Below are positions 2,528-7,349 of a DNA stretch of 64,000 nucleotides, in pieces. Below the pieces are notes generated by a model. That model searched no databases. It saw only the letters and a list, made by a program, of their open reading frames with translations, and was not told the DNA's origin. The number at the start of each line of letters is the position of its first letter. The first letter of the stretch is position 1. Location: contig QHVT01000005.1 of assembly GCA_003223645.1 (NCBI GenBank), positions 62,001 through 126,000 on the forward strand, in the 5' to 3' direction. The translations under genes were made by a program, and so were the position numbers. This DNA comes from Acidobacteriota bacterium (GTDB lineage: Bacteria; Acidobacteriota; Thermoanaerobaculia; Gp7-AA8).

Positions 2528-6307
<3,780 letters not shown>

Positions 6308-6361
6308 GCGCGTCGTCCTTTTGGCGGGGCCGCCGAAGCGAGAGGGGCTGACGAACGCCGG

Positions 6362-6415
6362 CTCTTTAGCTTTTTTTATCCTGGTTGCAAGCGGCCACAC
6401 GCAAATCAGTCCAGG
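6362..6415 (-). promoter_or_regulatory. SAM-II-like riboswitch upstream of metH
   Basis: On the minus strand, a CCTGG arm (6411-6415) is followed two bases later by TGATTT (6403-6408), a loop, TTGCAA (6385-6390), the complementary CCAGG arm (6380-6384), then ATAAA and AGCTAAA (6364-6370). The order GAUUU, UUGCAA, P1 closing arm, AUAAA, GCUAAA is the conserved skeleton of the SAM-II (metA) riboswitch. It ends about 55 bases before the metH start. The gene downstream makes methionine, the precursor of SAM, which fits the expected control. Assigned by eye; a covariance search was not possible. Confidence 0.7.
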
Positions 6416-6458
6416 TGGGCGGAGGGTACGGCAGCGGCGGCGCTCCTGTCAAACGGCG

Positions 6459-7349
6459 CTATTTGCGCACGGAGCGCGTGCGGCCGTTGCTGTAGTTCGA
6501 GAGCACCAACGCGCTGTGATTATTCGAGCGGTTGTGATCGTTGTATGCGGTGACGCTGACGTGATGCGTGAAGATCGTCTTCACCGGCTTGGTATCGACG
6601 AGCGCGATGATCGTTGCCGTTGCTCCCGGCGTGAGCGTACCGAGGGCGCACTGCACTCGCCAGACAGGCGGAGGCGATGGTGAACCAATGATGGCAAAGA
6701 TCGCAGGCTCGGAGCAGGTTCCCTGCGACGGCGTGACGCTCAGATACTTCACTTTTGCCAGGTCGCCCTCGATCGTCAGGTCAACGTCGGCGCGCTGCAC
6801 CGTCTGCGGTCCGTCATTCCCGACGTCGACCGTGATCGGGAACTGCGTTACGCGCACCTCCGGTGCGCGGCTCGCGACTTCGAGGTCGGCGTCCGGTCCC
6901 ACCAGGACGATGAGCAGGCGGCTGCCGGTGCCTTGATTAGGATCGCCGGTGTCGTATTCGATGACCGGCTGATTGGTCAATACGTAGATGTCGACGGTCG
7001 GATCGATACGAACGAACAGTTTGAACGTCGCCGATTCGCCGGCGTGAAGCGTGTCCATCCTCGCGATGGCTGTACCGTATCCGCCATACAACGGCGTGAG
7101 GATCGACGCCGCGGGGCCTCTCGTTTCAACGAACGAGATGAACCGCGTGATCGACGCTGTATCGTCGGAGAGCACGACGTTGTGGGCGTCGACCGCTCCG
7201 GCATTCGTGACTGTGAAGGTGTAGCCGAGCTCCGAGCCGGGCGTGAGACTCTCCTCGCTGGTCGTGGCCGTCAACTCGACGACGGCGGACGCGTCCGCGA
7301 ACGCAGCGGTCGCCGAAACGAGGAATCCGAGGAACAACAGTACGCGCAT
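6459..7349 (-). CDS. Secreted DUF11-like repeat protein
   Basis: A 296-residue protein starting MRVLLFLGFLVSATAAFA, a clear signal peptide, followed by SELGYTFTVTNAGAVDAHNVVLSDD (about residues 35-60), typical of the DUF11 beta-sandwich repeat found in surface and adhesion-like proteins. A second Ig-like section (about 155-290) contains PITVDVGNDGPQTVQRADVD. Its start codon overlaps the stop of the upstream methyltransferase-like gene as TAATG, implying translational coupling. No cell-wall anchor or sorting signal is visible. Probably exported; role unknown. Confidence 0.7.
   Translation of the reverse strand: MRVLLFLGFLVSATAAFADASAVVELTATTSEESLTPGSELGYTFTVTNAGAVDAHNVVLSDDTASITRFISFVETRGPAASILTPLYGGYGTAIARMDTLHAGESATFKLFVRIDPTVDIYVLTNQPVIEYDTGDPNQGTGSRLLIVLVGPDADLEVASRAPEVRVTQFPITVDVGNDGPQTVQRADVDLTIEGDLAKVKYLSVTPSQGTCSEPAIFAIIGSPSPPPVWRVQCALGTLTPGATATIIALVDTKPVKTIFTHHVSVTAYNDHNRSNNHSALVLSNYSNGRTRSVRK

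Follow-up and report, generated by a model that had tools for sequence, protein, structure and literature searches.

A SAM-II-like aptamer in the metH leader of an acidobacterium and the terminators that accompany it in related genomes

Introduction

The gene for methionine synthase, metH, lies on the minus strand of an acidobacterial DNA stretch of 64 kb (64,000 nucleotides, here called the window), and a short series of motifs in its leader recalls the SAM-II aptamer. Does this leader contain a SAM-II riboswitch, and through what output would such a switch act on metH? Reports of SAM-II concern Alphaproteobacteria and, in a few cases, other proteobacteria and Bacteroides (PMC1273637), as well as γ-Proteobacteria and Bacteroidetes (PMC2258182); a long-loop form comes from Bacteroidetes and marine samples (PMC2864571). 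From comparisons of sequence, we conclude that the window element is very probably a SAM-II aptamer that would control metH by SAM.

The aptamer and its gene

Positions 6415-6360 of the window, read on the minus strand, hold in succession CCTGG A CTGATTT GCGTGT GGC CGC TTGCAA CCAGG ATAAAAAAA GCTAAA GA GCC. These segments supply P1, the two strands that form the P2 pseudoknot, a third strand rich in U and the core GCUAAA (Table 1). The skeleton drawn by the sequence-only reading, CCTGG..TGATTT..TTGCAA-CCAGG..ATAAAAAAA..GCTAAA, is exact at 6415-6362 on the minus strand. The window carries all 12 pairs of P1, P2a and P2b, that is, a P1 hairpin and an H-type pseudoknot with a 3′ tail. The nucleotides of the SAM site, with roles carried over by alignment from PMC6061858, are also present: the GAUUU third strand, UUGC, and the bulged U and AAA of GCUAAA.

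Table 1. Features of the metH leader and gene, in window coordinates.
Feature	Position	Strand	Basis
-35-like hexamer TTGACA, just past the upstream gene's stop	6447..6452	-	leader comparison
-10-like hexamer TACCCT, spacer 18, 7 bases 5′ of P1, weak TATAAT match	6423..6428	-	leader comparison
P1 5′ strand CCTGG	6411..6415	-	covariance match, reading, alignment
L1 uridines of GAUUU (triplex third strand)	6403..6405	-	role from PMC6061858
P2a 5′ strand GGC, also in the putative switching strand	6394..6396	-	alignment, pairing tests
P2b 5′ strand UUGC	6387..6390	-	alignment
P1 3′ strand CCAGG	6380..6384	-	covariance match, alignment
L3, A-rich, ATAAAAAAA	6371..6379	-	reading
GCUAAA core: P2b 3′ strand, bulged U 6368, A6367-A6365 of the probable SAM site	6365..6370	-	contacts inferred from PMC6061858
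P2a 3′ strand GCC	6360..6362	-	alignment; 95.8% of P2a cells paired
GCGGCCCC, terminator 5′-arm remnant; 3′ arm and U-tract missing	6326..6333	-	alignment with G017, G007, G008 and G009 metH leaders
Shine-Dalgarno-like AAAAGGA, 8 bases 5′ of ATG	6316..6322	-	read directly
metH, cobalamin-dependent methionine synthase, 1259 aa	2528..6307	-	NF007024, TIGR02082, Pfam

A lenient cmscan of window 6250-6500 (251 bases) matched the site at full length on the minus strand with both SAM-II models: RF01726 at 36.6 bits (E 1.1e-5) and RF00521 at 26.9 bits (E 2.2e-4). The search with RF00521 that had been proposed as a check gave a match along the whole model at a score below the gathering cut-off of 36 bits, an outcome that the sequence-only reading had counted against itself; the cut-off of RF01726 is 44 bits. 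With both scores under these lines, which mark database inclusion and no biological feature, the site is missed by standard annotation, and Rfam at gathering cut-offs gave 0 matches over the whole 64-kb window. The site is placed in the SAM-II class, outside gathering-level Rfam membership. Searches of the genome from which the window comes (6.38 Mb in 51 contigs) found two places only, the same with RF01726 as with RF00521: the window site (RF01726, E 6.5e-5 in the genome-wide search) and a second one at C41:266994-267054 (RF01726, 38.3 bits, E 2.6e-5). Both are followed by genes of methionine/SAM biosynthesis, the second by one for a bifunctional homocysteine S-methyltransferase/methylenetetrahydrofolate reductase (MTHFR) (NF006396, 732.2 bits).

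The identity of the window gene, and with it the placing of the element in a metH leader, is backed by NF007024 (1935.5 bits), TIGR02082 (1611.8 bits) and the five expected MetH Pfam domains. The distance of some 55 bases that had been given likewise holds, since 6362 lies 55 bases from the metH ATG at 6307; from the aptamer end to the start codon there are about 52 nt. The upstream ORF ends at 6459. The candidate promoter hexamers lie between it and P1, and transcription would probably start a few bases 5′ of P1. An exact TTGACA occurs at a like place in 22 of the 34 distinct leaders of the order; a generic promoter scan, which required at least 4/6 in the second hexamer, left the TTGACA/TACCCT pair of the window unreported.

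Within the metH gene itself, window 5141-5261 forms an imperfect inverted repeat, about 121 bases long, which is in frame and falls in the linker that joins the homocysteine domain to the pterin domain. A repeat akin to it (82%) is found at L076:2294-2426, and in the metH of a member of the same genus (L047:6085-6200) the flanks are present and the repeat itself is absent. Judged by these comparisons, it appears to be a mobile repeat of intergenic type within a metabolic gene.

Conservation in the order

At E ≤ 0.1, RF01726 matches all 18 genomes of the family, 0 of them over the cut-off; at E ≤ 0.01, it matches 18 of the 19 genomes of the order. In total, the order has 35 sites in its 19 genomes (34 distinct leaders and one variant). 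The downstream gene, whose type was judged by N-terminal sequence and motifs and HMM-tested for the two genes of the window's own genome, is metH at 18 sites and the bifunctional homocysteine methyltransferase/MTHFR gene at 17; by genome, a site precedes metH in 18/19 and the bifunctional gene in 17/19. Four further weak RF01726 matches (L036, L037, L038 and L043), when read, did not resemble a SAM-II leader before a methionine gene and were kept out of the alignment.

Pairing was assessed in an alignment of 24 sequences, of which 21 come from the order and 3 from other parts of the phylum. Paired cells make up 91.7% in P1 (for G407, this helix is misaligned by a few bases), 95.8% in P2a and 99.0% in P2b, or 95.1% of the 288 cells of the three helices combined. 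The covariation score is 0.125; shuffles give 0.075 (sd 0.009), slid partners 0.002-0.051. Changes on both sides of a pair number 11 cells, compared with 4.5 in shuffles. The outer pair of P1 is C-G in 10 of the 24 sequences and G-C in 9. Since P1 and P2b vary little, the covariation rests on few pairs. The GCUAAA core is invariant in the alignment, apart from one genus in which a C is inserted. The pairs of the pseudoknot are thus conserved, with some compensatory change, and the pairing on which the sequence-only reading had made its case depend is kept in the leaders of relatives. Two leaders of genus g4, L020 and L031, have aptamer variants with the extra core C (GCCUAAA) and a GAGUUG third strand, differences that would matter for SAM binding.

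Could the likeness be a chance one, or could a conserved protein-binding or attenuator site stand here instead of a SAM aptamer? The Rfam scores under the gathering cut-offs speak for such a reading, but the whole-length match to two SAM-II models with both pseudoknot helices kept, the occurrence of only two sites in the genome, both before methionine-synthesis genes, and the related sites in the phylum that pass the RF00521 cut-off make it very improbable. Nor is the element likely to be SAM-V, which shares the SAM site and has a core nearly superimposable with that of SAM-II (PMC6061858): the cmscan of window 6250-6500, up to E 10, gave RF01726 and RF00521 and no SAM-V family, and SAM-V is described as translational (PMC6061858), while the terminator-linked platform of the relatives fits SAM-II.

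Terminators in the relatives and the window copy

The window element, taken as a SAM-II aptamer, would act as follows. When SAM is plentiful, the RNA would fold into an H-type pseudoknot around it, built of P1, P2a, P2b and the U-rich third strand. Expression of metH would then go down; at low SAM, the strands of the aptamer would be free and metH would be expressed. The usual output in the order would be transcription termination through a GC-rich hairpin and U-tract 3′ of the aptamer.

Of the 35 sites of the order, 32 have an intrinsic terminator 3′ of the aptamer and ahead of the gene. This makes SAM-induced termination likely, and the distance to the start codon is then not odd. It had been suggested that this distance implies a new mechanism; the suggestion is not supported, given these 32 sites and the terminator platforms that are common among SAM-II leaders (PMC1273637, PMC2258182, PMC6061858). 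The three sites without a terminator are those before metH in the window, in G002 and in G018. In the window leader, the terminator-platform test found no intrinsic terminator between aptamer and metH. Aligned with the metH leaders of G017, G007, G008 and G009, it keeps the 5′ arm GCGGCCCCGC and continues directly into AAAAGGACGACGCGC-ATG. In the G002 metH leader (L025), a gap takes the 3′ half of the terminator and the usual metH start codon; from the sequence, this gap would reflect an assembly error or damage.

With the aptamer and 5′ arm kept and the 3′ arm and U-tract lost, the output of the window copy may be translational, or control may be weakened or lost. A translational output, in which folding around SAM would alter access to AAAAGGA/AUG, is possible, and we lean against it. 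The intact aptamer, the good Shine-Dalgarno sequence at an ideal distance and the absent terminator favour it, and translational SAM-II switches are known before metX (PMC6061858) and metA (PMC9373788). Against it, the Shine-Dalgarno sequence lies outside P2a, about 38 bases further on, and a helix between the aptamer loop and the window leader (-20.6 kcal/mol) was dropped as evidence of a translational switch, since 21.5% of shuffled leaders reach it; no competing helix stood out over shuffled sequence.

The window copy might also be a switch in decay, its aptamer still present, its platform deleted and metH constitutive, or the deletion might be a draft-assembly error at a GC-rich hairpin; we hold this to be somewhat unlikely. 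Such a view draws on the terminator kept in G017, of the same genus, and in other near relatives, on the start of the window gap at the hairpin loop, and on the similar gap before the G002 metH, which even removes the usual start codon. It has against it the core positions of the aptamer, which are intact and show no decay, and the clean ribosome-binding site and ATG that the window gap leaves.

Two proposed forms of antiterminator pairing

How might the aptamer of the order be linked to its terminator? We propose that the loop strand GGGGCCGC, freed when SAM is scarce and containing the GGC that is otherwise in P2a, would pair with the 5′ arm of the hairpin (GGCCCC) as an antiterminator. This pairing of the aptamer loop (GGGGC..) with the terminator 5′ arm is here called type B; in type A, the tail GCUAAAnn pairs with the terminator.

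For type B in the order (n = 32), own pairings stand at -16.16 kcal/mol against -14.94 for swapped ones (0/5000 permutations). When the set was thinned by identity, p was 0.0002 at 85% (n = 26), 0.015 at 80% (n = 18) and 0.045 at 75% (n = 9); at 70% the signal was gone (p = 0.87, n = 5). An earlier test with a longer 5′-arm stretch gave p = 0.0016 for 15 metH-type leaders and p = 0.065 for 17 bifunctional ones. Outside the order, type B was not significant (p = 0.068, n = 96). The 5′ arm reads GCCCC or GCCTC in 30 of 32 terminators of the order, and GCCCC occurs in 0 of 31 other terminators, a list that contains near-duplicates. Against type B, 9.5% of the pairings with 27 control terminators were as strong as the own pairings, and the longest pairing runs (6-11 for own pairs) were not separated from those with control terminators (mean 6.4). 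Equilibrium folding was set aside as proof of two states: of the 4 leaders with a terminator that were folded, 3 favoured it without ligand (a fifth, that of the window, has none), which leaves switching unproven. On balance, we slightly favour an antiterminator in the order that is formed by the aptamer loop strand and the 5′ arm of the hairpin.

Type A is strong outside the order. Own pairings there (n = 96) have -9.39 against -8.07 (0/5000 permutations), and with thinning at 70% identity the result is still 0/5000 at n = 21; at n = 7, p is 0.047. Within the order, p = 0.21. Of the 96 non-order hairpins, 47 contain the motif TTT[AG]GC, where shuffles would lead one to expect 2.2; among the 32 hairpins of the order, 0 contain it. 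In non-order terminators such as those of L145, L157, L198, L110 and L095, nnUUU[A/G]GC complements the tail GCUAAAnn and co-varies with it.

It is tempting to propose two wirings in one phylum, a suggestion that we rate at a little short of even. Most leaders would pair the SAM-binding tail (GCUAAAnnG) with a terminator motif of the UUURGC type, and the order would pair the P2a loop GGGGC with the 5′ arm; the antiterminator would have moved between the strands of the pseudoknot, and the window metH would then have lost its terminator.

Distribution in the phylum and beyond

How far does the element reach? Among 396 genomes of the phylum, RF01726 matches 13 at E ≤ 0.01, one of them over the cut-off, and from this model alone the element seemed nearly confined to the order. 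That view is corrected by RF00521, with matches in 77 genomes at E ≤ 0.05 and in 34 over the cut-off, and by R1, a model of our own trained on the alignment of the order plus three non-order sequences, with matches in 70/396 at E ≤ 0.05; both of these searches used stricter filters, and matches near E 0.05 are doubtful. Taken together, the three counts indicate that SAM-II is regular in the phylum and that the form of the order is divergent and sub-threshold. The sequence-only reading expected the site to broaden the range of SAM-II, which it does little, as the class is known outside Alphaproteobacteria (PMC1273637, PMC2258182) and passes the RF00521 cut-off in those 34 genomes. A literature search for SAM-II or SAM_alpha in Acidobacteria, Acidobacteriota or Thermoanaerobaculia, in sources available in part and lying mostly outside subscription journals, found no description. 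One RF01726 match over the cut-off, L035:1500-1561 (G389, 48.6 bits), precedes no methionine gene but a TonB-receptor-like one, named by eye and with no NCBIfam match.

In a scan of named genomes by sequence pattern, 28 stretches matched, and records of Acidobacteriota, Acidobacteria or Thermoanaerobaculia account for 25; of the other three, one is in a Bacteroidales record and two are in other bacteria (one uncultured). Close copies of the aptamer stand before metK in L051 and L053, one in a Bacteroidales record and one in another bacterium, their similarity hinting at common origin or transfer.

Downstream genes outside the order were surveyed for 101 hits of R1 and RF00521 to about E 1e-3, which omits weaker hits and some same-genus duplicates; the gene was taken as the longest ORF starting within 700 bases, and tandem sites count twice. 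The main clusters are homocysteine methyltransferase/metH (53), threonine synthase (16) and O-acetylhomoserine sulfhydrylase (15); small ones are metK, a nitrite/sulfite-reductase family and a short-chain dehydrogenase (2 each). Eleven singletons include aspartate kinase, a metX-like gene and a TonB-type protein; representatives of most clusters were profile-tested, the reductase and the metX-like gene falling below curated cut-offs and the TonB-type protein having no match. In other families of the phylum, tandem SAM-II aptamers with terminators, about 120-140 bases apart, are found in L191, L160, L198, L172, L169, L138 and L157; most of them precede threonine synthase genes. As 44 tandem SAM-II sites were already reported (PMC9481103), these were not taken as new; SAM control of threonine synthase would be less expected.

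Comparison with known systems and significance

The window site is closest to long-loop SAM-II (RF01726; PMC2864571), the best-scoring model, with which it shares P1, UUGCAACC, the A-rich L3 and GCUAAA. It differs in scoring below the cut-off of 44, in being acidobacterial and in its targets, metH and the bifunctional homocysteine methyltransferase/MTHFR. With the alphaproteobacterial form (RF00521, the metA motif; PMC1273637), it has in common a promoter, here a putative one, just 5′ of P1 and, in the order, a terminator after P2; the differences are a score below the cut-off of 36, a P2a of 3 bp here, and proteobacterial targets that are mainly metY, metA and metX (PMC4239095). The SAM_alpha regulons of Proteobacteria comprise metY, metA, metX, metC, hom and metW in the part of that source consulted, where metH is not named. 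In view of this list, metH as a main target is a modest extension.

For the metZ SAM-II of S. meliloti, SAM-induced termination is predicted (PMC9373788), as in the order. In the order, the loop strand would pair with the 5′ arm of the terminator. The published SAM-II accounts searched, in the main-text passages available, yielded no description of the two wirings. We regard the element as belonging to a known sensor class with new members, and the wiring of the platform in the order as possibly new.

In B. subtilis, yitJ encodes a bifunctional homocysteine methyltransferase/MTHFR. The SAM-I element before it, the yitJ S-box (PMC11014391), is a functional parallel to the sites before the bifunctional genes of the order, although the RNA fold is unrelated.

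SAM-II control of methionine synthesis extends through the Acidobacteriota, including sites under current Rfam cut-offs. Its constant targets within the order are metH and the gene for the bifunctional homocysteine methyltransferase. If the two wirings hold, SAM-II would offer a testable case of an expression platform rebuilt around an unchanged aptamer.
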